This document shows, one piece after another, positions 29,217 to 48,876 of a stretch of 52,263 bases of DNA. The notes below the pieces were generated by a model. The model saw only the letters and a program-made list of their open reading frames with translations, was not told the DNA's origin and did not search any database. The position numbers and the translations under genes were made by a program. Numbering within the stretch: the stretch's first letter is position 1; the number at the start of each line of letters is the position of its first letter. Origin of the DNA: an uncultured Acidimicrobiaceae bacterium (GTDB lineage Bacteria > Actinomycetota > Acidimicrobiia > Acidimicrobiales > RAAP-2); contig CAIVIS010000395.1 of the NCBI GenBank assembly GCA_903906055.1, positions 1-52,263 on the forward strand, in the 5' to 3' direction.

Positions 29217-30155
29217 CTAGGGCCACAGCACACCGCGGACCGCTGCCGGCCATCGAGATGGGTCGGTCCCGTGGCGGTCGAGGAGGGCGAGCGCGATCCG
29301 ATCCACCCCGAATCCGAAACAGGCGGAGTGAGCCAGTTCACCATCCGACGTCAGGATGGCGAAGGGCCGCGAGAAGTGGTCGAGGTGGCAGTTCGAGGAC
29401 GAGATCGCCGTCTCCCGTCGGGCGGAAAACACCGGCACCACGAGCTCGAACTTGAGCTCCTCGGACCGCTGGTTGGCTGCCAGCATCCGACCAGGACGGC
29501 CGAAGAACGGATCGTTGGCCACCACCGACTCCACTTCGAGGTCGAGCCGCCCGAGCACATCGAGGCCCCGAGTGATCCAGTCGTCGCGGTGGGCTCGAGC
29601 ACCCTCGGGCGTCCCGAGGTAGACGAACTCGTGCATCCGGAACGACTGCATGCGGAAGGGATCCTGGCTGGGCTCGTGGCGGAAGCAGTAGCCGAAGATC
29701 TCGAACCGCCGGCCGCCATCGGGCAGCGTCCCCGATTGCGTGGGATACAGCGCATGGCAGGCCGCCGGGCAGAGGACGATATCGGTGGCATCGAGGAGCG
29801 GGCCCCTGTCCTCGTGCGCCTCGGTACGCCGGAGGAGCTCCGCATGGAGCTTTTCGTCGCCACGGAACGAATGCACCGACCCCATCTGGTCCGGAAACGA
29901 CTCGAGGTAGCCGTTCTTCTCGAATGTTGCCCAAGGCATGACGGGTGGGAATCGGAGGTTGACCGCCCCGAGGTCTGCACCGGCGGAGACGGCCAGTGCG
30001 TCGACCGCCTCCACGACCGATTCGTAGGTGGCGGAGCGGCCGTAGATGCCATCCACTCCGGTCTCGAGGAGGATTCCTTGGTCGAGCAGGGCCCGTCGGA
30101 ACTCGGCCCACGGCTCGCCGTCGGTGGTGGTGGGCTCCGAGGTGGATGGCGACAT
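29217..30155 (-). CDS. Class II aaRS-like amino acid:[carrier protein] ligase
   Basis: Motif 2-like 'YCFRHEPSQDPFRMQSFRMHEFVYLG'; motif 3 'ACFGFGVDRIALALL'; candidate Zn ligands in 'CPAACHA', 'HEFVY' and 'SSNCHLDHFS'; no tRNA-binding domain; adjacent carrier protein. Confidence 0.85.
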   Translation of the reverse strand: MSPSTSEPTTTDGEPWAEFRRALLDQGILLETGVDGIYGRSATYESVVEAVDALAVSAGADLGAVNLRFPPVMPWATFEKNGYLESFPDQMGSVHSFRGDEKLHAELLRRTEAHEDRGPLLDATDIVLCPAACHALYPTQSGTLPDGGRRFEIFGYCFRHEPSQDPFRMQSFRMHEFVYLGTPEGARAHRDDWITRGLDVLGRLDLEVESVVANDPFFGRPGRMLAANQRSEELKFELVVPVFSARRETAISSSNCHLDHFSRPFAILTSDGELAHSACFGFGVDRIALALLDRHGTDPSRWPAAVRGVLWP

Positions 30156-30160
30156 CGCGC

Positions 30161-31339
30161 TCACTCGCCTCGGTGGACGAGGAGCAGCTGTCCGTTGTTG
30201 GTCATGATCCGGTCGTTGTTGACCATGAGCGAGGCCCCCATGGCATCGCGCAGATGCCGTCCCATGCTGTACGGGCTGTCGAGTCGGTAGGAGGCCAGCC
30301 CGCAGATCAGCATGCACTCGCGCACGATGTCGACCACCAGGTTCGATGCCGTTACCTTCAACGAGTTCATGGCGACTGCGAAGCCGATCGAAGTCAGCCG
30401 GTCGATATCACCGTCAGCCTCTTCGAACCGGGCGATCGAGGACCGGACACTGTCGACGAACTGCTGGTGCACAGCGGTGACATCAGCCAGGCGAAGTGCG
30501 GCCGTAGGCGTCATCCCCGGTCGGCGGCGGGCTTCGGCCTGGACGAACTTGCGGGCCAGGTCGACCGCGTCGGTGGCGATACCGAGCCACACCGAGCTCC
30601 ACAGCAGGTGAGCCACTGGGAGCATGGTCCGCGTGGAGATGTCGGAGTAAGGATCGTCGAGCACGGCCGACGCATCGCCGGTGGCCCGAAGCACGAACCC
30701 GGTGCTGCAGGTCCCCCGGAATCCGAGGGCGTTCCACTCACCGATCTGGTCGAGCTCGAGTTCGGGCGGGCGACACAGCACTAGGACCTGGTCGCTGGCC
30801 GGGCTGTCAGCCGTGCGCCGAGCGGTCACCATGACGGCATCGGCCTCGAGCCCATAGGAGATCACCGGCGCCTCCTTCTCCAGGCTGAACCTTCCGTCCG
30901 ACAGGTCGAGGGCACAGACGCTCGATCGAACATCGCCACCCGTGCCCACCTCAGTGGTGGCCGAGGCCAGCAAGTACTGGTGTTCGACCAGCTCGCGCAG
31001 ATAGCCCCGCAGCACTTCGTTGTGGCCGTGGCGCACCAGACAGGCCACCTGGCTGTGGTGCATGGCCACCACCATGGCGCTCGATGCGCACCTGCGCCCC
31101 AGAGCGATCAAGCCCTGGGATACCTCTGCGATGGTGGCACCAGGGCCACCGAACTCGGTCGGCACCAGCGCAGCCAGCAGCCCCTCGGCGCGCAGTGCGT
31201 CGATCGTTTCCATCGGGAAGCGCGCCTGTTCGTCTACGTCTGCAGCCGCAGGCCCGGCCACCTTGTCGGCGATCGATGCCATCCGCAAGCCGACATCGGT
31301 CGAACGATCCACATCTGATGTGTCGTCGGGTGCGGTCAT
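30161..31339 (-). CDS. Acyl-CoA dehydrogenase-like flavoprotein
   Basis: 'GLLAALVPTEFGGPGATIAEVSQGLIALGRRCASSAMVVAMHH', 'LASATTEVGTGGDVRSS', C-terminal 'RHLRDAMGASLMVNNDRIM'. Confidence 0.85.
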   Translation of the reverse strand: MTAPDDTSDVDRSTDVGLRMASIADKVAGPAAADVDEQARFPMETIDALRAEGLLAALVPTEFGGPGATIAEVSQGLIALGRRCASSAMVVAMHHSQVACLVRHGHNEVLRGYLRELVEHQYLLASATTEVGTGGDVRSSVCALDLSDGRFSLEKEAPVISYGLEADAVMVTARRTADSPASDQVLVLCRPPELELDQIGEWNALGFRGTCSTGFVLRATGDASAVLDDPYSDISTRTMLPVAHLLWSSVWLGIATDAVDLARKFVQAEARRRPGMTPTAALRLADVTAVHQQFVDSVRSSIARFEEADGDIDRLTSIGFAVAMNSLKVTASNLVVDIVRECMLICGLASYRLDSPYSMGRHLRDAMGASLMVNNDRIMTNNGQLLLVHRGE

Positions 31340-31346
31340 CGCCTGC

Positions 31347-31592
31347 TCACGTGCCTGCGAGTTCGGCGACGCCGGCACTGATGGATGCGACCGACTCGAA
31401 GGTCGACTTCTTCAGCATCTTCTCGGGGAATTCGAAGTCGAACGCATCCTCGAGCGCCAGCATCACGTTGATGCTGGCATGCGAGGTCATACCCGCCGCG
31501 AACAGATCATCGCCGTCAGCCAGTGATTCGATGGGTACGGCCAGGCGCCCATGGTCGGCCACCACCTGGCGGATCGTCTCATTCACAGTCAT
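31347..31592 (-). CDS. Stand-alone acyl/aminoacyl carrier protein
   Basis: 81 aa; 'DLFAAGMTSHASINVMLALEDAFDFEFPEKML', with Ser of GMTS as likely 4'-phosphopantetheine site; ATGA overlap with upstream gene. Confidence 0.88.
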   Translation of the reverse strand: MTVNETIRQVVADHGRLAVPIESLADGDDLFAAGMTSHASINVMLALEDAFDFEFPEKMLKKSTFESVASISAGVAELAGT

Positions 31593-32044
31593 CCGTCTCC
31601 TTCTTCTGTCGAGGTCCGCTCGATCACCCGGCACCGCGCCACGACCACTGCTGCTGCTGCTCCTGCCTCATGCGTGAGGCTCACCGAAAAGTCATCGATA
31701 CCGGCGTCGCCAGCCAGTACCGCCGCCCGACCGGACAGCCGGATCTCACACCAGCCTCCAGCCAGACGATGCACTTCGATGCTACGCCAGTCTGGTTGCC
31801 CATCGGTGGGTCTCAGCACCTTGATCACTGCTTCTTTCGCGGCGAATCGAGCGGCCAGCGACTCCATCGAATAGGGCACTGAGCCATCGCCAGTGCGAGC
31901 CGGTCGGCGACAGCAGTCGATCTCATGGGGAGTGAACAACCGGCGCACGTAGCGGTCGCCGAAGTGGAGCACGGAGGCGGCCACGTCAGCGACGGCCACC
32001 AGGTCGACCCCGACGCGAAGACGTTCCGCCGACCGGGCAGTCAC
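31589..32044 (-). CDS. AcpS-type 4'-phosphopantetheinyl transferase
   Basis: 'VGVDLVAVADV', 'RLFTPHEIDCC', 'SLAARFAAKEAVIKVL', 'FSVSLTHEAGAAAAVVVA'; GTGA overlap with upstream GT. Confidence 0.87.
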   Translation of the reverse strand: MTARSAERLRVGVDLVAVADVAASVLHFGDRYVRRLFTPHEIDCCRRPARTGDGSVPYSMESLAARFAAKEAVIKVLRPTDGQPDWRSIEVHRLAGGWCEIRLSGRAAVLAGDAGIDDFSVSLTHEAGAAAAVVVARCRVIERTSTEEGDG

Positions 32045-33246
32045 TGGACGCCAACCCGATGCCGAGACCCGATGCCTCGGGAGCACACCGTCGAGTACAC
32101 CGCCCGATACCGGTCAGTGATGAGCGGCCAGGCGAACTGCTCCACCCGGAGTTGCCCAGCCGCGGCCAGGGACTGGCACAGTTCGCCATCGGCCAAGACC
32201 CGCTCGAGCACCCGGGCGACGGCCATGGTGTCGAACGGATCGACCAGAAGTCCATCGCGCCCCTCGCTGATGAACTCCGGCGCCCCTCCCCTGCTGGTAG
32301 CCACTACCGCCGTGCCGGCCCGCCAGGCCTCGAGGGCGACGATGCCGAACGGCTCCAGCCGACTCGGCATGACGAAGACGGTCGCCTCGGCCATTACCGA
32401 TGCGACCTGTTCGCGGCTGAGGCGCCCGACCAGATGCACCCGATCGGCGATCCCCGAGGCCTCCGCCTGTGCTTCGAGGCCCTCGAGGGCTGGACCCGAG
32501 CCCCCGATCACCAGGTCGGCCGTCCGCATCGTCGGGTCCATGGCGGCGTATCCAGCGAGCAAGAGGTCGAAGCCCTTCTTCTCCACTACCCGCCCGAGGG
32601 CCAGCACATAGGGAGTCCCGCCAAGGAGCGGCGCCCGCTCGACAGATGCATCTGCCCCTGATTCGCTGGGGCCAACGAGTGATACCCCGTTCGGGATCAC
32701 CATGCCCCGGCCTGCACGTAGACCGAAACGGGCGATGGCATCGTCCATGGTGAATTGAGAGCAAGCGGTGACGGCCGATGCAGAGCGGAGCCCGGTGCGC
32801 AGGGCTGCCCGCATGACCCGCGAGATGTCGAAGAGGTCGGTATCGTCCATCACCGTCTCACCCTGCAAGGTGACCACCAGTGGGATGCCCGTCAGCCGAG
32901 CCAGCGCCGTGGCATACGCCCCGTTGGGCCCGAAGCACTGGACGTGGAGGACCTCCGGTTCGAATGCCATTGCCGCCCGACGCAGAGAGCGCATCGTGCG
33001 GACCCCCGTGGTAGCGGTGCGGATGAGGGAGTGGAGATTGGTGGCCGGCAGAGGCATCGGAAACCGCCGGACGACCAGCCCGTCGCGGGTCTCCACCGTC
33101 TCGGGGGCACCGTCATCGTCGAGTCCGGTCCACACTTCGACCTCATCACCTTGGGCGACCAGCGCCAAGGCCAGATGCCGGGTCAGCTCCTCTACCCCAC
33201 CGACCGATGGCGGGTAGGCGCTCGGCATCAACGCGACCCTGGTCAT
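32041..33246 (-). CDS. Glycosyltransferase family 4
   Basis: 'MPSAYPPSVGGVEELTRHLALAL', 'VFVMPSRLEPFGIVALEAWRAGTAVVATSRGGAPEFI'. Confidence 0.9.
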   Translation of the reverse strand: MTRVALMPSAYPPSVGGVEELTRHLALALVAQGDEVEVWTGLDDDGAPETVETRDGLVVRRFPMPLPATNLHSLIRTATTGVRTMRSLRRAAMAFEPEVLHVQCFGPNGAYATALARLTGIPLVVTLQGETVMDDTDLFDISRVMRAALRTGLRSASAVTACSQFTMDDAIARFGLRAGRGMVIPNGVSLVGPSESGADASVERAPLLGGTPYVLALGRVVEKKGFDLLLAGYAAMDPTMRTADLVIGGSGPALEGLEAQAEASGIADRVHLVGRLSREQVASVMAEATVFVMPSRLEPFGIVALEAWRAGTAVVATSRGGAPEFISEGRDGLLVDPFDTMAVARVLERVLADGELCQSLAAAGQLRVEQFAWPLITDRYRAVYSTVCSRGIGSRHRVGVQ

Positions 33247-33357
33247 CAGCTGTGGCCGCCCGATGGGCACAGCGATGCCGCCGGCCAGCCGGTGGCTGAG
33301 GTGTCAGTGGGCATCAGGGCCCCGCCGATGGCAGTGGAGGAGGTCAACAGATCGATC

Positions 33358-34470
33358 TTAGATAGTGCGAGGGTCCAACCACGGTTCCATGGCATCGAGT
33401 AGCGCCCCGCTGGGCGCCGGGGCCAGGCTGCTCCATCCGCCGACACCGGGTGACCACCGGTTCGAAAAGGCAGCCGAGTACCAGCCGGACAGATAGCCCT
33501 GTTCGGCGCAGTCGCACAGGGGAGCCCAACTAGCAGGGTGGACGCCGAGCATGTTGGCGATCTGGTCATGGCCACCCTGTGGCTGCACGTATGCGGCGTC
33601 CACTTCATGGCCGATCTCGAATGCGGTGATCGCCGCCAGCCGCTCCACTGTCTCCCCTGGGTAGACGTAGATCGAGGAGGTCCCACCGGCCTGTCCCCAG
33701 GTGGACACGGTGTTGCCATAGAACCCGGGGGACGGCGCCTCGGCGATCGACCGGAACACGATCGAGTAGCCGGGGATCTTCTGCCACGGGTAGGAGATCA
33801 TCGCCAGTGCGGCTGCGCCCATGGCCTCGGGGGTGTCGAGGCTGGCCGGTGCGGCCGACGAGGTAGCCGCAACTGGGGCGGTTGGGGCAGCTGCGACCGG
33901 GGCCGGGACGGACGTCGATACAGAACTCGCGCCTGAGGCGCCGCCAGGTGGAACGGCCGCTGACGGAACGGCCGCTGACGGCTCCACCCGTGGGGCGACG
34001 GACGCTGTCGTCGGGCCATGTGGGCGGGAACGGACGAGGTCGGAGGCCACACCCGTTGCCGTACCGGTTGCCGCTACTGGGGTCGGCCTGATCGGGATCG
34101 TCAGCACCAAGACGGCCCCGACCAACATGGTCGCCAGCGCCAAGGCGACCAGGATGTCGAGGCGGAGCAGGATGCGTCGGTGGGCATGGGTCGTACGGCC
34201 CACCAGTGCCCGCAGGCCGGTCCGGCGACGATCCACTCCCACATATCCGTCGGACAGCACCAGGCGGGGATCGTCCAGTACCGCCAGCGCATCAGCGCCA
34301 GCTCCAGGAGTCGGCCACTCCAGTTGGCGATCCAGAGTTCGGTAGCCCTCCACCGGAGACGAGTCGGGCTCGATTGCCGGGAACCGGATCGGATCGACAA
34401 GAGCCACGCTGCCCGTCGACGCGTCGCTCGCAGAGTTCAGACCAATCTCGTCAACACGACCCGTCGGCAT
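33358..34470 (-). CDS. Single-pass membrane protein with extracytoplasmic metalloprotease-like domain (degenerate HExxH)
   Basis: TM 'ILVALALATMLVGAVLVLTIPI', Ser/Ala/Pro linker, C-terminal 'YPWQKIPGYSIVFR...IYVYPGETVERLAAITAFEIGHEVDAAYV'. Confidence 0.65.
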   Translation of the reverse strand: MPTGRVDEIGLNSASDASTGSVALVDPIRFPAIEPDSSPVEGYRTLDRQLEWPTPGAGADALAVLDDPRLVLSDGYVGVDRRRTGLRALVGRTTHAHRRILLRLDILVALALATMLVGAVLVLTIPIRPTPVAATGTATGVASDLVRSRPHGPTTASVAPRVEPSAAVPSAAVPPGGASGASSVSTSVPAPVAAAPTAPVAATSSAAPASLDTPEAMGAAALAMISYPWQKIPGYSIVFRSIAEAPSPGFYGNTVSTWGQAGGTSSIYVYPGETVERLAAITAFEIGHEVDAAYVQPQGGHDQIANMLGVHPASWAPLCDCAEQGYLSGWYSAAFSNRWSPGVGGWSSLAPAPSGALLDAMEPWLDPRTI

Positions 34471-34652
34471 ACTCAGAAATCGGCACGTCGGTGGGTCAAC
34501 TGAAGACCCCGACGGGTGCAGAACCACCGACAATCCGTGAGACGCGTCGGTCGGCTGCCCGGTCAGCTAGTGCGTCATTGGCCAACGGTTACCTGGAACA
34601 CCCATCAGGCGCAAGGCACATTGACCGGACCGGTCACACCGCTCGGCTCAGA

Positions 34653-35534
34653 TCAGGGGGTAGGCGGAGCCGTAGCCGCGGTCCCAGCGGAACCCGGCGA
34701 GGCAGACCCAAGTAGACGCGCTCCCTGACGTTCCGCCCGGGCCTGCGCTCGGGCCGCGGCCTGGTCGGCCCGGTGCTGTGCTGCAGCGGCTTGTGCATCG
34801 AGTCGAGCCTGAGTTGCCGCTGCCTGTGCCGTGGACCTGTCCAGGCCGACCTGCGCCTGCTGGCGGGCAGCGACCACTGGGGACACGCCCACGGCGGCTT
34901 GGGACCTAGACCCGGGCCGCGCTGCGGCCCCTGCTGCTGCCCCTGCCGCTGCCGCTGCCCCTGCTGCTGCCGCCGCGCCGGATGCCCCCGAGGGGGAGCC
35001 TTGCGCTCGCCCCAGCCCTCGCTGATATGCAGCCTCAGCACGGGCCATCTGTGCCGCGTTCGCCGTGATCGCTCGTTGCGCCTGGCGATCGGCTCGGGCC
35101 TGCGCCTTCGCTGTCGGTGCGGCCTGTGCCGACTGACTAGGCGCAGCGCCGACTGAAGCGGGCGGGACCGACCGAGCAGAGATGGCAGTAAGTGGCAGCA
35201 CCACCATGGCGGTAAGCAGCGCCACCGAGCGGATTCGACGCAACCATGCCGGCGGGCCAGATGGGACGGGCGGGCTCGCCCGGTCGAAGCGGCGACGATC
35301 CGGCCCCACATAGCCGTGCGAGATGACGAGCGAAGGGTCGTGCAGGTCGGCGACCAGGCTCGACGGGAAGACGATCTCCACATCCTCGGGCGCGACGATC
35401 ACCGCGCGGCTGAGGACGGCGACCCCAGAACTGGCCTGCTGCCTCGATGAACCGGGGACGCCTCGGGTTGCCCCGGTTCCACCGGCGAGGAGCTCTTCGA
35501 CTCCGAGGCTCGACTCTTGCGACTTCCCAACCAT
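34653..35534 (-). CDS. Hypothetical single-pass membrane protein with Ala/Gln/Arg-rich extracytoplasmic region
   Basis: N-terminal 'LHDPSLVISHGYVGPDRRRFD', TM 'SVALLTAMVVLPLTAISA', low-complexity tail. Confidence 0.55.
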   Translation of the reverse strand: MVGKSQESSLGVEELLAGGTGATRGVPGSSRQQASSGVAVLSRAVIVAPEDVEIVFPSSLVADLHDPSLVISHGYVGPDRRRFDRASPPVPSGPPAWLRRIRSVALLTAMVVLPLTAISARSVPPASVGAAPSQSAQAAPTAKAQARADRQAQRAITANAAQMARAEAAYQRGLGRAQGSPSGASGAAAAAGAAAAAGAAAGAAARPGSRSQAAVGVSPVVAARQQAQVGLDRSTAQAAATQARLDAQAAAAQHRADQAAARAQARAERQGARLLGSASPGSAGTAATAPPTP

Positions 35535-35664: not shown

Positions 35665-36714
35665 TCAGACGGTGAGACCCACCGACCGATAGACGTCGGC
35701 CGTCGCCCGAGCAGAACGCTCCCATGTGAGCGACGCGGCTGCCTCGAGCCCTCGTCGGGCCAACTCGGTCCGTCGGTCGTCATCGCCCAGCAGCGCGTCG
35801 AGCACCACCACCAGACCATCGACATCGCCAGGCACGAACGTGGCCGCTCCAGCGCCCACCAACTCGGCGATGGCCGGAACCGATGTCGACACCACGGCCG
35901 CCCCACACGCCATCGCCTCCACCGGCGGGAGTCCGAACCCCTCGTAGCGCGAGGCGTAGCCCACCAACGTGGCGGCCCCGTACAGAGCCGGCAGGTCTCC
36001 GGTCGGCACGTGACCGATCTCGGTGACCGATTCGGGCGCCTGATGCGCCCAGAGTCCGTGACCGGTCACGATCAGGGGAACCCCGACCCGCCCGCATGCA
36101 TCAGCCAGAGTGCCGAGGTCCTTACGCGGCTCGATATTCCCGACGTGCAGCACAAACCGCTCGGGTAGGTCGTAGTGGCGGCTGACGCGATCCACCTCTG
36201 ACGCACTGGCCGGGATCATCTCGGGACTCGGGGCCTCGTGCACCACCACCGCTTCTCGGCCGGTGATGGCCCGGATCCGCTCCGCGGTGAACTCTGACAC
36301 AGCCACGATGGCGTCAGCCCGCCGCAGGGCTGCACGGACCAGCATCCGCTCACCCCTGACCCGGAACCGGGGGAACGCCCAGGGCACATCGAAGATGGCC
36401 ATGTCGTGGACGGTGGCAATCCGAAGTCCAGATCTCCGCAGCGGCAGGTCGACGTCGAGTCCGTGGGTGAGGTCGGCGGGTCCGAAACCCCGCGCTCCGG
36501 CCAGTGCTCTGCGTGCACCGTGCGACTCGGCCAAGACCATTGGCGTCACGCCGTCAGGCACCAGGGTGCGGCCGACAGGTCGCACCGCAGCGACCAGTTC
36601 GGCTTCGACCACAGGGACCAGCGCACGAAGGAGCTCGCGGATGTACGTGCTCACGCCACCGCCACGAGGATCCAGTGGAAGGGCGTTGTAGGCGATGCGT
36701 GGTCGTGCGCTCAC
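35665..36714 (-). CDS. Glycosyltransferase family 4
   Basis: 'IAYNALPLDPRGGGVSTYIRELLRAL', 'VLHVGNIEPRKDLGTL', 'RYEGFGLPPVEAMACGAAVVSTSVPAIAELV'. Confidence 0.9.
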   Translation of the reverse strand: MSARPRIAYNALPLDPRGGGVSTYIRELLRALVPVVEAELVAAVRPVGRTLVPDGVTPMVLAESHGARRALAGARGFGPADLTHGLDVDLPLRRSGLRIATVHDMAIFDVPWAFPRFRVRGERMLVRAALRRADAIVAVSEFTAERIRAITGREAVVVHEAPSPEMIPASASEVDRVSRHYDLPERFVLHVGNIEPRKDLGTLADACGRVGVPLIVTGHGLWAHQAPESVTEIGHVPTGDLPALYGAATLVGYASRYEGFGLPPVEAMACGAAVVSTSVPAIAELVGAGAATFVPGDVDGLVVVLDALLGDDDRRTELARRGLEAAASLTWERSARATADVYRSVGLTV

Positions 36715-36736
36715 CTGGGTGCTGACCCGGAGCGGA

Positions 36737-38215
36737 TCACGAGTTCGTCCCTGGCGGCACGGGTCCAGGCGGCAAGGGTTGTGCACGCTCGGGCCCAGGC
36801 GACACGCCGGCCTGGCGCCGCTCCTGCCCGGGCTCGGTCGCAGTGCCAGGTCGCCGCGGAGGCGAGGTCGGTGCCCGCCCCCCGCCGCTCGAACCCGTCT
36901 TTGAAGCTGCAGCCGTCAGGGCCGCGATCTGCTCCCCATCGGGGTCGGCGTCGGCCATCCCGAGCGATATCCCGGCGATGATGAACGGGGTGATCGACAA
37001 CGCCCCGATCCAGAACGTGTCGAACAGCCCATCGACGTAGTGGGCCATCAGCACCACCAGTCCGAGCGTGCCGTAGATGCGAGGCAGCCCAGACATGGCT
37101 CGCATGGTCACGATGACGAGACCCACGAAGGCCAGCGATCCCACGATCCCGGTGGACGCCAGGTTGTCGACCAGAGAGTTCGGGGGAGGGGTCACCCACA
37201 GGTACTGCGGCAGATTGTAGAAGCGCATTCCCAGCCCGAGCCAGGGACTCTGGTGCCACACGTGGACAGCGGCGTCGATCTGCCCGATCCGGATGGCGAC
37301 CGAGTTGAACTGCGGGTTGTTCTGGAAGGCCAGCACGAAACTGTAATAAACCAGCCCGATGGCAGGGATGGCTATGAAGATGATCAACCTCCACCGGGCC
37401 CGCACCTCGGAGTTGAGCAGCAGAGCCATGCCCAGGGCGAGGACCACCATGATGGCCGACTGCCGCGACTGACACGCCAAGAGGCCCAGTAGGCAGAGGC
37501 CCTCGATCACCCGGGCCTCGACCTTGGGGATCCGGACCCACGACGGATTGATCTGCGCGATCACGATGGCCACCCACATAACGGCTCCGACGGCGTTCTT
37601 CTGGTAGTCACCCCACTGGGCCGGCTGGAAATGCATGGCCACCGCGTGCTCGAGGGCGGCCAGGGCCAAGATGGCGGCTCCCCACAGGTAGAGGCGGAAC
37701 GCCTGACGAGCCCGACCGTGATACGCGATCACCCAACCAACGAGGGTGCTCCCGGCCAGATAGGAGAAGCGGTGGAACCACTCCAAGATATCGCCGCGGA
37801 ACGGGTGGACCACGACGACGAGGAGGAGCACCGCCTCGAACCACACGATTCCCCTCAGGAATCGCTTCAGGTGGACCGCCGTACTCCACTTGATATGGAA
37901 CAGGCAGACGAACGCGGCCACGAGCACCAGGAGATCGGCCAGACTGAGATTGGTGCCGCCTCCTCCGACCCGTTGGATCAAGATGGACCCGGGCAGCACC
38001 ACTACGGCGATGAGGATGGGATCGGCCACGAAGATCCCGAAAGCGAAGATCAAGATGGCAAGAGCCAGACCGGCGACGAGGTTGATACCCACCGCCACCC
38101 CAGCCACCGCAGCCACGGCAGCAATCGAGATCCAGACCAATGCCCGCCCGGCAAGCGGTTTCCCACTGTTCAGGACGCGTCCACGCACCCGACCGGTGGT
38201 GGAGTTCGGACTCAT
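36737..38215 (-). CDS. O-antigen ligase/polymerase (Wzy/WaaL-like) membrane protein
   Basis: Polytopic; periplasmic 'QFNSVAIRIGQIDAAVHVWHQSPWLGLGMRFYNLPQYLWVTPPPNSLVDNLASTGIVG' typical of O-antigen ligases. Confidence 0.82.
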   Translation of the reverse strand: MSPNSTTGRVRGRVLNSGKPLAGRALVWISIAAVAAVAGVAVGINLVAGLALAILIFAFGIFVADPILIAVVVLPGSILIQRVGGGGTNLSLADLLVLVAAFVCLFHIKWSTAVHLKRFLRGIVWFEAVLLLVVVVHPFRGDILEWFHRFSYLAGSTLVGWVIAYHGRARQAFRLYLWGAAILALAALEHAVAMHFQPAQWGDYQKNAVGAVMWVAIVIAQINPSWVRIPKVEARVIEGLCLLGLLACQSRQSAIMVVLALGMALLLNSEVRARWRLIIFIAIPAIGLVYYSFVLAFQNNPQFNSVAIRIGQIDAAVHVWHQSPWLGLGMRFYNLPQYLWVTPPPNSLVDNLASTGIVGSLAFVGLVIVTMRAMSGLPRIYGTLGLVVLMAHYVDGLFDTFWIGALSITPFIIAGISLGMADADPDGEQIAALTAAASKTGSSGGGRAPTSPPRRPGTATEPGQERRQAGVSPGPERAQPLPPGPVPPGTNS

Positions 38216-38360
38216 CGTGATGACTCGGAGTGGTTCATGGGGCCTCGGGCGCCTCGGGTGCCTCGCGAAGGTCGACCGTTGAATCGTAGCGGTAGCGCTA
38301 CGCGCCACGACACCCCCCAGATCGAGACGAGCAGCACACCCTCGCCCTGGGGACGCTGCA

Positions 38361-39793: not shown

Positions 39794-41407
39794 GTGACCT
39801 TCAAAGAGATGCTCCACACGCTCTGGAGAAGAAAACTGACCATCTTGATCAGCGCCGTGGTCGCCACTGCCGCTGCATTGGCCTATGCCAAGGTCTCCGC
39901 TCCTACCTACCAGTCGACGGCGTTGATCCAGATCAATGCCCCGGGGCAGACGACGAGCACCGGATCGTCGTTCACCGTTCCCGACCCGGTGCAGGAGCTC
40001 AACAGCACCACGGTCAAGATTGCCGCCGCCAAGACCGTAGGAGCGACAGATCCTTCAGCCTTGGCGAGCCAGGTGACCGGAGCCGTCGACCCCACTACGG
40101 GAACCGTGACTGTGACGGGGACCGGCTCTACGCCACAAGAGGCGCAGGCCATCACTACGGCCTACTCCGAAGCCCTGGTGGCCCAGATCCAGGCGCTGGC
40201 CAAGGAGAAGATCGACAAGTACACGGGACTGCTGGCCGCCTCCGTCGCCAAGATCACCGCGCTGCAGGCCCAGTTGGTTCCTGAAGTGACCGGCCAGCCG
40301 GTCAACACCGCCAACGCTCTCGTGTCGGCGCAGATCACCGCAGAGTCCGCTACCTACAGCACGCTCCAGGCGGCACAGTCGTCCATCCAGGTCGGCATGC
40401 CTTATGCCGTCATCCAAGTGGCCGCAGCACCGGGAGTCTCCACCGGCCTGAGCACCCCCAAACTGATCGTCATCGGACTCCTCGCTGGCTTGTTGGCCGG
40501 TTGTGGGATCGCCTTTGTACGCGACCAGTTCGACGACGGGGTCCGGATCACCTCAGATATCGACTCGGTCATCGACTGTCCGCTGTTGGGCGAACTACCC
40601 CAGGATGCCGACGTACACAAGGGCGCAGTGCAGATCGCCATGGTGCAAGCTCCTCAGTCGTCGTTGGCCGAGGCCGTCCGCGACCTGCGCACCAGCCTCC
40701 GCGTCCTCATGGTCGGAAAAGAGAGTCCGATCATCGTCGTGACGAGTCCCGAGCCCGGTGACGGCAAGACGTTCGTTACCGCCAATCTGGCCGCGTCGTG
40801 GGCGTTGACCGGCAGCCGGGTGATCGTGGTCTCCGCGGACTTCCGCCGACCCAAGCTCGAGGCCATCTTCGGTATCAACGTTGCCGGAAAACGCGGCCTG
40901 TCCGATCTGATCAAGGCCAACTGGAAGCAGCCCGAACCCCCTGACCGCAACAGCGAGGCCAGCAGTTGGTCCGGGGACGAGCGGGGCAGCGACCATGTAG
41001 ATCAGGGACGCCACAGCAGCATCTACGGTGCTGCCGCTGTGAGTGCCCACCTGCTCGATACAGGGATCGACGGACTCCAGTTGCTTCCGGTCGGACTCCA
41101 CCTCGACAATCCGAGCGAACTGTTCGACAGCCCAGGCATGCAGCCGGTCCTCGATCAGTTGCACGTCCTCGCCGACATCATCTTCCTCGATACCCCGCCG
41201 GTGCTCTCCTCTCCGGACACTGCCATTCTCGGAAGCCTCACCAACGGGGCCGTCGTGGTCGCTTCGGAAGCGAAGACGGACCGGGCAGACCTCGAACGGA
41301 CGGCAAACCGACTGTCGGCGACGGGATGCAACGTCCTAGGCCTCATCGTCAATCACGTGCGGCACAGCTCATCGGACAACTATCAGGCCTACGCGTCGAA
41401 GTCGTGA
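39794..41407 (+). CDS. Wzz-type polysaccharide co-polymerase fused to BY-kinase-like ATPase
   Basis: Wzz N-terminus 'LHTLWRRKLTILISAVVATAAALAYA'; Walker A 'SPEPGDGKTFVTANLAASWA'; 'DIIFLDTPPVLSSPDT'; GTG start. Confidence 0.88.
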   Translation: MTFKEMLHTLWRRKLTILISAVVATAAALAYAKVSAPTYQSTALIQINAPGQTTSTGSSFTVPDPVQELNSTTVKIAAAKTVGATDPSALASQVTGAVDPTTGTVTVTGTGSTPQEAQAITTAYSEALVAQIQALAKEKIDKYTGLLAASVAKITALQAQLVPEVTGQPVNTANALVSAQITAESATYSTLQAAQSSIQVGMPYAVIQVAAAPGVSTGLSTPKLIVIGLLAGLLAGCGIAFVRDQFDDGVRITSDIDSVIDCPLLGELPQDADVHKGAVQIAMVQAPQSSLAEAVRDLRTSLRVLMVGKESPIIVVTSPEPGDGKTFVTANLAASWALTGSRVIVVSADFRRPKLEAIFGINVAGKRGLSDLIKANWKQPEPPDRNSEASSWSGDERGSDHVDQGRHSSIYGAAAVSAHLLDTGIDGLQLLPVGLHLDNPSELFDSPGMQPVLDQLHVLADIIFLDTPPVLSSPDTAILGSLTNGAVVVASEAKTDRADLERTANRLSATGCNVLGLIVNHVRHSSSDNYQAYASKS

Positions 41408-44554: not shown

Positions 44555-44685
44555 GCGCGAACCGTAGCAGCAGGTCGAATCGGAAGAACTGACTGAATTC
44601 CCTTCAAATATCACTCTGCGTGGTCGGATCGCAACTATTCGTGGGATTACTCTCAAGAAAGCCCGCGGTCGGCCGATCAGTTGGT

Positions 44686-47600
44686 ATGGATCAGGCAGGG
44701 GCAAAGCACCACAAGGCAGGCGTCATCCGGGGGGCAGTGCTCACGATGGCTACTCTCATCATCGCGCTCACCGTCGGCGTGAGTTTGAACGGAACGGCTC
44801 ACGCCACAGCATCCCCTCCTCAGATCGCTGGCAGTCCCGCCGCCCCCACCGCGTCAGAGATCAGCCCGGTCTGCACCACGACAACCCCGTCGACCTCACT
44901 CGGTCCAGTGGGGAGCCTTCCGGCCAACCCGATCTCCCAGGTGGTCGCTCCCGTCGGAGGAGTCGACAACTTTACTGCTACCGCTACCAACATCTACGTC
45001 GATACCGGCAGCCAGCTGATCACCTACACGTTGGCCGGCGCCCAGGTCAGCGCGTTTACGCTGCCCGCTCACTTCGCCGGCAATACCGACGAGGTCTACC
45101 AGCCGCTCATCGACCCGTCCGGGAACATCTACCTCTCGTCCTACTACGGCACCAAGGTGGACAAGTTCTCACCCACGGGCACGCTGCTCTGGTCCGTCGA
45201 TCCCCAAGGAGGGAACCCGACGGCCGTCTTTTCGGTGGGCACCGGAGCCAACTTCCAAGTCGTGGTCAGCCTGGTGCAGAACACCGCATCGAGCGTCACC
45301 CTCGACCAGGCCACGGGCGCAGTCAACGGCACCTTCCCGTTGGTCGTCGGGACATACGCGTTCGTCACTCAGGAAGCCAATGGCAACCTGCTCTACTCGG
45401 CCAACGGCTACGTCAAGACGATCAGCCCGACCGGCCAGGTCCTCTCCACCTTCGGCGCTCCCCACATCCAAGGGGACGGAAACCGCACCGCAGCGGGCAG
45501 TCAGTTCTACTATCCGGCTCAGGCCACCCAGGGGGCGGATGGCACCATCTACACGGCCGACCCGCTGTACTCGATGGAGGCGACCTCGCCCAACGGCATG
45601 CTCAAGGGAAGCACCAATCTCGGCGGGGCACTCGCCTTCGGGGGCTGGAACTTCGCGCTGATCGGCTCGACCTTCTACTTCCAGAGCGGCCCGCCGTTCA
45701 ACGGCCCGGCTGATGGCATCTCCTCGTTCTCGCTCGCCTCGGTGCAGAGCTACCTCGCGTCGGCCCAACGCGCCAGCAACAGCCTCGGATGGGGTGCTGG
45801 ACTCTCGACTCCTGCCACCGGCAACTACTTCGCAGCCGGGACCACCCCAGCTGTCAACGCCACCTTCGACTCATGGTGGGCCGCTTCCTCTGCCCACTTG
45901 CAGCTCTCCTACTCGGTAGAGAACACCGCATCGATGGTGGCCGAGTCCGTCCCGACGCCGACGGTGATCAACCTCCCGAGTACGCCGACAGGGCTCGCAT
46001 CGATACCGCTCACGATTCCGGCCGAAGACACCAAGCCTGGTCCCTACCAAGTACAGGCCGTCCTGATCGACACCTCCACTACGCCGCAGTCAACACTCGG
46101 CACTACATGCCTTCCCTACACGGTGGGTGCCGCGGGCAACGGCTTGAACTTCGCCACCCTCCCGGCCGGGTCAGGCGCCGGTGGTCCGGCTGATCCCCGG
46201 GGAGTCGCCCTGAACGGACAGCTCGGGCTCAACGGCCTGCGGAGCAGTTCGGTCATTGACTGGGGCTCGCTCCTGCCGAACTGCTCGGCATCGGCTCCGA
46301 CAGCAGCCACTTGTGGGGCATCAGCCATCACCTTTGCTTCGGCTAGCACCGATCCGTACAAGGCCTCCTTTCTGGCCAATCAGAACAAGGTGACCTACTG
46401 GATCCAAGTCAGCGGCGGTGAGCCCCTGCCCACCGCCCTGGTGAACAGCGGATTCTGGCAGGCCGACGTTGCCGCCCTCGTCGCCCACTACGACACTGTT
46501 CCGGCCGGATGCACCGGGTGCGCACCGGTCACCAACTGGGAGCCATGGAACGAGTCCAACAACACGGGATGGGGAAACGGGGGCACCTACGCCACCAAAG
46601 TCCTCGCACCGTTCTACGCCGGGGTGAAGTCGGTGGAGCCAGGTGCCTCCTCCACCGTCATCGGTGGATCGACCCTGGAGCCGGTGGTCGGCTGGTGGCA
46701 GCAGTTGATCGCCGCCGGTGGACTGAGCGCTATGGACGTGGCTGCAATCCACCCCTACACGGGGTCCAACGATGCCTACGAAGAAGACGGCATGGCTACT
46801 CAGGTGCGCCAGGTGCAGGCGCTGCTCGGATCGAAGCCCCTGTGGTTCACGGAGGTCGGATGGTGGAGCGATGGGGACTACAACTACCTCGGACAGGCCA
46901 ACAGCGTCACTCGGTCGATGATCTGGCAGAAGGTGCTCGGCGTTCCGGTGCAGAACTACTTCTTCAACGAGGGCAGCTGGGGTAACGACGGCATTTCGTT
47001 CTCGTTGATTCAAGCCAGCAGCACCGTCGACTACGTGAAGCCAGCAGCATTGGCGACGATGACCACCTCGGGTGCACTGGCTGGTCGTCCCTACCTGTCG
47101 ATGCCGGCCACGGGGATCCCCCAGGGGTACCAGGCCAACTTCGGCGCTGCCCCTGGTGGGACGACCGCTGTCGCTGCCGTGTGGTCCGATGGACTCCCGA
47201 CTACTTCGACCATCACGGTGACCGATCCGAACGGTGGGACGATTCCGGTGACCATCACCTCGGAGTACGGGGACACCACCACAGTCCGAGTCACTTCGGG
47301 CGCTGGCTACAGCCTGCCCCTGTCCGACCAGGTCGCCTTCGTGACCTACCCGGCAGGGGCGACACTGTCGACGGGTCCCACTGAGGTCTTCGGCACCGAC
47401 CTGGCTTCGGCGGCTGCCCATGCCAGCGCTACCGCCTCGAGTGGCAATGCGGCGGCGGCCATCGCTGGACTGCCCGTCGGCTACGGCCAGGGATGGACGT
47501 CGGGGGCTGGCGACACCACTCCGTCGCTCACCGTCACTCTGGCGGCGGCATCCACTCTCGACCGAGTCATCGTCAACACGCAGTCCGTGGGTTCGACGGC

Positions 47601-48876
47601 CACCAGCATCCGCAACTACACCTTGTCCGCCAATGAGCCAGGGGTCGGTTGGGTCACGATCGCTACGGTGACCGGCCAGTACCGGAATCACGCGGCTCTG
47701 TTCAGTTTCGCACCGCTGGTCGCCACGGCACTGCGGGTCAACGTCTCCGAAGTGAACTTCGGGGGCTACTACGGAGGAGGCATCCCCCCGTGGTGGACGA
47801 CAGGGCAGAGCGCCAATGCATTCATCCATGCCATCCAGGCCTATTCGGGATCAGGCGGGCCTTCCGTGGTGAACGGTTCCGGACTGACCTCCCTGCTGGC
47901 TGGAGGGGCGCCGACCACCACGACTACCACCACTACGACCACAACGACGACCACCACTGTGCCGCCGACCACTGTGCCGCCGACCACTGTGCCGCCGACC
48001 ACCGTGCCGCCGACCACCACGACTACCACCACGGTGCCGCCGACCACCACGACTACCACGACTACCACCACGGTGCCGCCGACCACCACGACCACCACCA
48101 AGCCCACCTCTGGCAATCGAAACAAGAAGTTCAGGGGCTACTGGCTTACGACCAGCACGGGTGGAATCGTCACGTTCGGCCAGGCGCAGTCCCTCGGTTC
48201 AGCCGCCGGACTCACCTTGAACCACCCCATCGTCGACATGACCTCGACGCCCGACAAGGGGGGCTACTGGATGGTCGCCTCCGACGGTGGGATCTTCACG
48301 TTCGGTGATGCCAGCTTCTACGGCTCCACCGGAGGCCTGGGGATCAACAAGCCGATCGTCGGGATGGCCGCCACTCCGAGTGGACTTGGGTACTGGTTGG
48401 TGGCATCCGATGGCGGCATCTTTGCCTTCGGCGACGCCGGCTTCTTCGGCTCCACCGGCGCCATCTCGCTCAACAAGCCGATCGTCCACATGGCCGCCAC
48501 CCCGAGCGGACTTGGGTACTGGCTGGTGGCATCTGATGGCGGCATCTTTGCCTTCGGCGATGCCAGCTTCTTCGGCTCCACCGGTGCCATCTCGCTCAAC
48601 AAGCCCATCGTCGGAATGGACTCTTCCCCTGACGGCAGCGGCTACTGGCTGGTGGCATCCGATGGCGGCATCTTTGCCTTCGGCGACTCCGCCTTCTACG
48701 GATCCACTGGCGGTGACCACATCAATGCGCCGATCACCGGACTGCAGTCCAGCCCTACCGGTCAGGGGTACTGGCTCGTAGCCAAGGACGGAGGCATCTT
48801 CAACTTCGGCGATGCTGGCTACTACGGCTCGGCAGGAAGTCTCGGTCTTCCTTCGAACACCGTGGCCATCAACTGA
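44686..48876 (+). CDS. Giant secreted modular protein: signal/TM, beta-propeller-like region, GH-A-clan-like domain, F5/8C-like CBM, Thr/Pro linker, six 42-aa C-terminal repeats
   Basis: Signal 'VLTMATLIIALTVGVSLNGTAHA'; 'TNWEPWNESNNTGWGNGG' and 'PLWFTEVGWWSDGDYNY'; 'STLDRVIVNTQS...LRVNVSEVNFG'; TTTTVPPTT linker; GYWLVASDGGIFAFGD repeats. Confidence 0.82.
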   Translation: MDQAGAKHHKAGVIRGAVLTMATLIIALTVGVSLNGTAHATASPPQIAGSPAAPTASEISPVCTTTTPSTSLGPVGSLPANPISQVVAPVGGVDNFTATATNIYVDTGSQLITYTLAGAQVSAFTLPAHFAGNTDEVYQPLIDPSGNIYLSSYYGTKVDKFSPTGTLLWSVDPQGGNPTAVFSVGTGANFQVVVSLVQNTASSVTLDQATGAVNGTFPLVVGTYAFVTQEANGNLLYSANGYVKTISPTGQVLSTFGAPHIQGDGNRTAAGSQFYYPAQATQGADGTIYTADPLYSMEATSPNGMLKGSTNLGGALAFGGWNFALIGSTFYFQSGPPFNGPADGISSFSLASVQSYLASAQRASNSLGWGAGLSTPATGNYFAAGTTPAVNATFDSWWAASSAHLQLSYSVENTASMVAESVPTPTVINLPSTPTGLASIPLTIPAEDTKPGPYQVQAVLIDTSTTPQSTLGTTCLPYTVGAAGNGLNFATLPAGSGAGGPADPRGVALNGQLGLNGLRSSSVIDWGSLLPNCSASAPTAATCGASAITFASASTDPYKASFLANQNKVTYWIQVSGGEPLPTALVNSGFWQADVAALVAHYDTVPAGCTGCAPVTNWEPWNESNNTGWGNGGTYATKVLAPFYAGVKSVEPGASSTVIGGSTLEPVVGWWQQLIAAGGLSAMDVAAIHPYTGSNDAYEEDGMATQVRQVQALLGSKPLWFTEVGWWSDGDYNYLGQANSVTRSMIWQKVLGVPVQNYFFNEGSWGNDGISFSLIQASSTVDYVKPAALATMTTSGALAGRPYLSMPATGIPQGYQANFGAAPGGTTAVAAVWSDGLPTTSTITVTDPNGGTIPVTITSEYGDTTTVRVTSGAGYSLPLSDQVAFVTYPAGATLSTGPTEVFGTDLASAAAHASATASSGNAAAAIAGLPVGYGQGWTSGAGDTTPSLTVTLAAASTLDRVIVNTQSVGSTATSIRNYTLSANEPGVGWVTIATVTGQYRNHAALFSFAPLVATALRVNVSEVNFGGYYGGGIPPWWTTGQSANAFIHAIQAYSGSGGPSVVNGSGLTSLLAGGAPTTTTTTTTTTTTTTTVPPTTVPPTTVPPTTVPPTTTTTTTVPPTTTTTTTTTTVPPTTTTTTKPTSGNRNKKFRGYWLTTSTGGIVTFGQAQSLGSAAGLTLNHPIVDMTSTPDKGGYWMVASDGGIFTFGDASFYGSTGGLGINKPIVGMAATPSGLGYWLVASDGGIFAFGDAGFFGSTGAISLNKPIVHMAATPSGLGYWLVASDGGIFAFGDASFFGSTGAISLNKPIVGMDSSPDGSGYWLVASDGGIFAFGDSAFYGSTGGDHINAPITGLQSSPTGQGYWLVAKDGGIFNFGDAGYYGSAGSLGLPSNTVAIN
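47911..48105 (+). repeat. Low-complexity Thr/Pro linker (acc/act and gtgccgccgaccac tandem repeats)
   Basis: Encodes (T)n-(VPPTT)n. Confidence 0.9.
48139..48873 (+). repeat. Six in-phase 126-bp (42-aa) coding repeats, last truncated
   Basis: Unit starts at 48139, 48265, 48391, 48517, 48643, 48769; consensus YWLVASDGGIFAFGDAxFxGSTGxxxxNKPIVGMxxTPxGxG. Confidence 0.93.

Follow-up and report, generated by a model that had tools for sequence, protein, structure and literature searches.

The window analysed here is the whole 52,263-nucleotide stretch of DNA from an uncultured Acidimicrobiaceae bacterium. It carries an exopolysaccharide (EPS) locus in which two neighbouring genes encode membrane proteins, named protein A and protein B, that have one short sequence block in common. 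The features of the locus are as follows.

32041..33270, minus strand: GT4 glycosyltransferase, encoded immediately after A in most relatives
33358..34470, minus strand: protein A, with a cytoplasmic N-terminal part carrying the motif, one transmembrane (TM) helix, a Pro/Thr/Ala-rich linker and an extracytoplasmic domain
33361..33852, minus strand: extracytoplasmic domain of A, a degenerate zincin-like metallopeptidase domain by alignment with 18 distant relatives
34096..34155, minus strand: predicted TM helix of A (residues 106-125, from hydropathy), with an Arg-rich linker ahead of it
34222..34278, minus strand: motif in A, LDDPRLVLSDGYVGVDRRR (residues 65-83)
34653..35534, minus strand: protein B, with a cytoplasmic N-terminal part carrying the motif, one TM helix and an Ala/Arg-rich extracytoplasmic tail
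35178..35234, minus strand: predicted TM helix of B (residues 101-119, from hydropathy)
35289..35345, minus strand: motif in B, LHDPSLVISHGYVGPDRRR (residues 64-82)
35665..36786, minus strand: GT4 glycosyltransferase, upstream of B
36737..38308, minus strand: O-antigen-ligase-like Wzy_C protein
39794..41407, plus strand: Wzz chain-length determinant fused to a polysaccharide tyrosine autokinase-type domain

The gene order of the locus was GT2-GT4 / Wzz-kinase / GT4 / Wzy_C / GT4 / (B) / A / GT4, followed after the last GT4 by AcpS / ACP / acyl-CoA dehydrogenase / amino acid-[carrier protein] ligase. The whole order was conserved in L024 and L029, and parts of it were found in most other relatives. 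The cassette at 29217-32086 (minus strand) comprises the amino acid-[acyl-carrier-protein] ligase (PRK07080 type), the carrier protein, the acyl-CoA dehydrogenase and AcpS; it lies directly downstream of the EPS-locus GT4 gene, is conserved with A in several genomes, and might load an amino-acyl group for modification of the polysaccharide. Another gene beside the EPS genes (44620-48876, plus strand) encodes a 1418-aa protein in which F5/8 type C is the sole recognised domain.

The motif peptides lie in the two open reading frames where the original prediction had placed them, but the ends given there (34225 and 35292) were one codon short of the true ends, 34222 and 35289. In a BLASTP of A against B, the only alignment was a block of 22 residues, 15 of them identical (E 6e-6), which agrees with the earlier claim that the extracytoplasmic parts of the two proteins are unrelated. 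Profile-profile comparison of the N-terminal regions gave 99% (E 8e-18) with the motif and only 14% once the motif was removed, so homology between A and B outside the block is unsupported.

Hydropathy analysis showed a single TM window per protein, which starts 31 residues (A) or 27 residues (B) past the G of GY, and the distance from motif to helix was nearly constant. The motif had been described as standing shortly before a single TM helix, and indeed it lies about 30 residues ahead of it in both A and B. The net charge was higher before the helix than after it (+3.7 vs +0.9 in A, +1.7 vs +0.8 in B), so an N-in, C-out topology is likely, and the motif is likely to be on the predicted cytoplasmic side of the membrane.

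The outer domain of A aligned along its length with 18 distant HE[ILV]GH proteins of Acidimicrobiia (L098-L115) at 25-35% identity; unlike A, these putative metallopeptidases do not have the motif. HExxH is replaced by FEIGH (F284) in A, and in all 14 aligned A sequences the first His is changed to Phe and the third-ligand Glu to Ala. With these two residues lost, the outer domain of A is probably catalytically dead and of a binding type. AlphaFold2 with the alignment of relatives gave a pLDDT of 92 for this domain. Several zincins recurred in the PDB search for its fold, but none was significant, so the zincin assignment rests on the sequence alignment. The outer part of B is Ala/Arg-rich, and Pfam recognised no domain in it.

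Thirteen relatives of A were found in GTDB species genomes, all of them Acidimicrobiia/Actinomycetes MAGs, and in L021, L024, L026, L029 and L031 a block-bearing B stands directly upstream of A. Profile A1, built on the block from 18 sequences of A and B, was searched over 296 genomes of the class, and its strong matches were confined to the genus. In 14 genomes of the genus there were 21 of them, spread over 12 genomes and always in A or B. No third carrier of the block was found by this search in the 14 genomes (next best match E 0.11); of the two genomes without a strong match, one has A cut at the contig start and the other is 71% complete and lacks A. The number of strong matches and their restriction to A and B indicate that the block is beyond chance. 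The suspected tie of the motif to the EPS locus held up, with the neighbourhood conserved and A and B the sole carriers found in the genus.

Identical residues of the block were often encoded by different codons, both among orthologues and when A was compared with B in a single genome. Since synonymous codons diverged while residues held, the block is under selection at the protein level. The DNA identity between A and B within a genome was 56-72%, which was no higher than between orthologues, so gene conversion or recent A-B duplication was rejected. For A, the commonest residue had a mean frequency of 0.28 upstream of the motif, 0.71 within the motif, 0.57 across the linker and 0.45 over the TM helix; the corresponding values for B were 0.50, 0.79, 0.38 and 0.36. 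Together with the codon divergence and the drop in the profile-profile comparison, these frequencies point to an old shared element kept at the protein level.

Within the block, Y, G and the last R of the core were invariant over 18 A and B sequences, and the Pro was present in 9/15 A and 6/9 B sequences and replaced in the rest (6/15 and 3/9). The LADLDxPxLVxSxGY stretch was also kept within the genus. In other genera of the family, GYxGP[DE]RR stays in A, and LADLDxPxLVxS weakens or is lost (L025, L027, L033), with more of it retained in L023, an A from another such genus. In the more distant A of L030, the outer domain was present and the motif was wholly missing. The A proteins of all six loci in which no B was seen upstream (some of them contig-limited) had the core Pro, as did A in only 3 of 9 genomes having both A and B, in a small sample of related genomes. 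In eight genomes, Pro seemed strikingly often to be lost from either A or B in a complementary way, but this idea was dropped because G668 has Pro in both.

When the motif profile was compared with 177,635 PDB sequences, the best match was the c-di-GMP peptide of CleD (6SFT, YVGPDRRRF, E 0.0016). With a profile of A in which no B sequence was included, 6SFT still ranked first among PDB sequences (E 0.045), and the reversed motif profile, used as a control, gave nothing up to E 10. The motif of B plus the next residue contains YVGPDRRRF, identical to residues 12-20 of CleD in 6SFT. A literature search for GPDRR as a motif found nothing relevant; the Y-x-G-P-D-R-R core is already published as the c-di-GMP-binding core of Cle proteins, so this part of the motif is not novel as had been supposed.

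In the Cle proteins of Caulobacter, the core occurs as a tandem [YF]xGP[DE][RK]R in the arginine-rich region (ARR), which keeps binding when fused to other proteins and, as a fusion to E. coli CheY, showed a Kd of 150 nM for c-di-GMP and a stoichiometry of 2:1 (PMC5677366). In 91% of known cases, the ARR is C-terminal to a CheY-like receiver domain, and Actinobacteria are absent from the published survey (PMC5677366). Binding of CleD was abolished by R156A and about 5-fold weaker with R169A (PMC5677366). The two cores in 6SFT are spaced 13 residues apart, the same as the R156-R169 distance, so we placed R156 at the last R of YVGPDRR. By this spacing, the Arg essential for CleD binding falls on an invariant A/B column, and the last R of the A/B core is likely its equivalent.

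The likeness to the Cle ARR goes further: B of the window matches the core exactly (YVGPDRR), and in both systems the motif is a short peptide outside folded domains. The differences are also clear. In the core of the window's A (YVGVDRR), Val stands in place of the Pro. Cle has tandem cores 13 residues apart, whereas A and B showed only one canonical core each. A conserved aromatic-plus-RR element (RATFGQRR and variants) does stand about 19 residues past the core of A, before the helix, and one could speculate that it is a degenerate second half-site. There is no conserved Arg before the A/B core and no conserved Asp after the core in A, and a conserved LADLDxPxLVxS precedes the core instead. 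The A/B motif is N-terminal and juxtamembrane, not C-terminal to a receiver domain, and no Pfam domain, receiver domain included, was above the cut-off in A or B. The hosts of A and B are Actinomycetota, and Cle hosts are mainly Alphaproteobacteria. With a single core, an often replaced Pro, and flanking Arg and Asp missing, A and B were not classed as members of the ARR family. Nevertheless, the block appears related to the Cle ARR in sequence and probably in chemistry too, and the A/B segment probably works like an ARR half-site, although convergence is possible since the CleD match rests on seven to nine residues.

From this short sequence match and its context we infer ligand binding, half-site pairing and an effect on polysaccharide synthesis. 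In the reading that we prefer, to which we give about even chances of being right, the block is a juxtamembrane c-di-GMP half-site, paired between chains, that links c-di-GMP to the exopolysaccharide machine. A and B would be bitopic membrane proteins of the exopolysaccharide locus; some 23 residues ahead of its TM helix, each would present a single Y-x-G-P-D-R-R half-site to the cytoplasm. A c-di-GMP dimer would be gripped at the surface of the membrane by two chains acting together, either one A and one B or two copies of the same protein; such a two-chain working unit is likely, as the known ARR has two cores and binds c-di-GMP 2:1. Binding of c-di-GMP would then shift the association or position of the A and B helices, and this change would signal to the outer domains and to the neighbouring glycosyltransferase, Wzy_C and Wzz machinery. 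The arrangement suggests that c-di-GMP controls polysaccharide production through A and B. The more specific version is a split ARR, in which c-di-GMP glues A to B and signals to a pseudo-metallopeptidase outside the membrane, which would in turn govern how exopolysaccharide is assembled in Acidimicrobiia; this is tentative, and we consider it unlikely to hold in every part.

The genome of the window had 12 matches to GGDEF, the diguanylate cyclase domain, and all 14 genus genomes were positive for GGDEF; PilZ was detected neither in the genome of the window nor in A or B. The poly-GlcNAc synthase PgaC/PgaD offers a comparison, since PgaC and PgaD together bind c-di-GMP at the membrane, which stabilises their complex, and a shared c-di-GMP site has been proposed for them, though not structurally resolved (PMC8461298). 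Like A and B, they are two membrane proteins of an EPS locus without a PilZ domain, with a proposed membrane-proximal c-di-GMP site shared by the two proteins; this is a comparison of how they work, with no homology claimed. Unlike them, neither A nor B is a glycosyltransferase, and the PgaC/PgaD site has not been reported as the A/B motif. In the PilZ-type EPS receptors BcsA and Alg44, Arg-dependent binding of a c-di-GMP dimer controls EPS (PMC8461298). The same kind of binding and control is proposed for A and B, but without the PilZ domain.

Three other explanations of the block were weighed. The original prediction had suggested a small pre-TM module for targeting or interaction, and the part that stood is a small pre-TM module under selection. 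A new motif for targeting or for docking to an export complex is less probable than a site for a ligand, given that the core is a published c-di-GMP core and 6SFT was the only credible PDB match. In its present form, the docking idea holds that the block is a c-di-GMP-independent peptide for a cytoplasmic EPS protein (e.g. the adjacent GT4 or the Wzz/kinase), with the same partner for A and B. It would account for a conserved block that is longer than the ARR core, as LADLDxPxLVxSxGY is superfluous for a simple ligand core, and for its being carried by A and B alone, as neighbours; it also agrees with the GT4 gene after A in most relatives and with motif-free L030 being without the GT4 context too. 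However, it is the ARR core that is kept across genera and not the LADLDxPxLVxS extension, this core matches a known nucleotide-binding peptide, and L025 retains it though its A gene does not adjoin a GT4 gene. We regard docking as rather doubtful, if still a serious contender.

A shared juxtamembrane structural or topogenic segment, left by an ancient duplication of the N-terminal and TM module and having no specific ligand or partner, is improbable in our judgement. A and B are adjacent with a common N-terminal organisation, and the Arg-rich stretch agrees with the positive-inside rule, but the two proteins have diverged in their linker and TM residues while keeping the core Y, G and R and the LVxS stretch, and topology alone would need neither Y-x-G-P-D nor L-x-DPxLV. 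That the similarity of A and B is due to chance or to the choice of open reading frames is hardly conceivable: the motif is short, and B is Ala/Arg-rich, where a simple gene caller prefers another frame, but the motif is conserved in A and B across many genomes even as synonymous codons diverge, which refutes it.

If the c-di-GMP reading is true, the ARR is no longer confined mainly to CheY-like proteins of Alphaproteobacteria and would serve as a c-di-GMP switch on the membrane side that is portable and perhaps also divisible. This would name candidate EPS receptors for an actinobacterium whose genome has numerous diguanylate cyclase domains but no PilZ detected, and A and B would provide an experimentally tractable c-di-GMP site shared by two membrane proteins, as proposed for PgaC/PgaD.

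To see the core beyond A and B, we scanned 298 genomes of the phylum for YxGP[DE]RR and read 123 sites, 68 of them in open frames of at least 150 aa. The core was rare and mostly near chance level in Actinomycetota. The expected enrichment before TM helices was not found, as the core alone preceded a helix in 3 of the 68 open frames, vs 1 in the mirror position, and a general juxtamembrane motif of the phylum was rejected as a rule. A widespread c-di-GMP motif of EPS or GGDEF proteins is anecdotal only, given that the core occurred in 0/22 sugar transferases and 0/30 GGDEF proteins of an order-level sample. In other Actinomycetota, YxGP[DE]RR was present in the C-terminal tails of two GGDEF proteins (L070, L071) and also in two bacterial sugar transferases (L074, L187). 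Near-identical proteins of two genomes (L156, L157) carry YVGPERR in the tail, and the one that was scanned is a citrate synthase.
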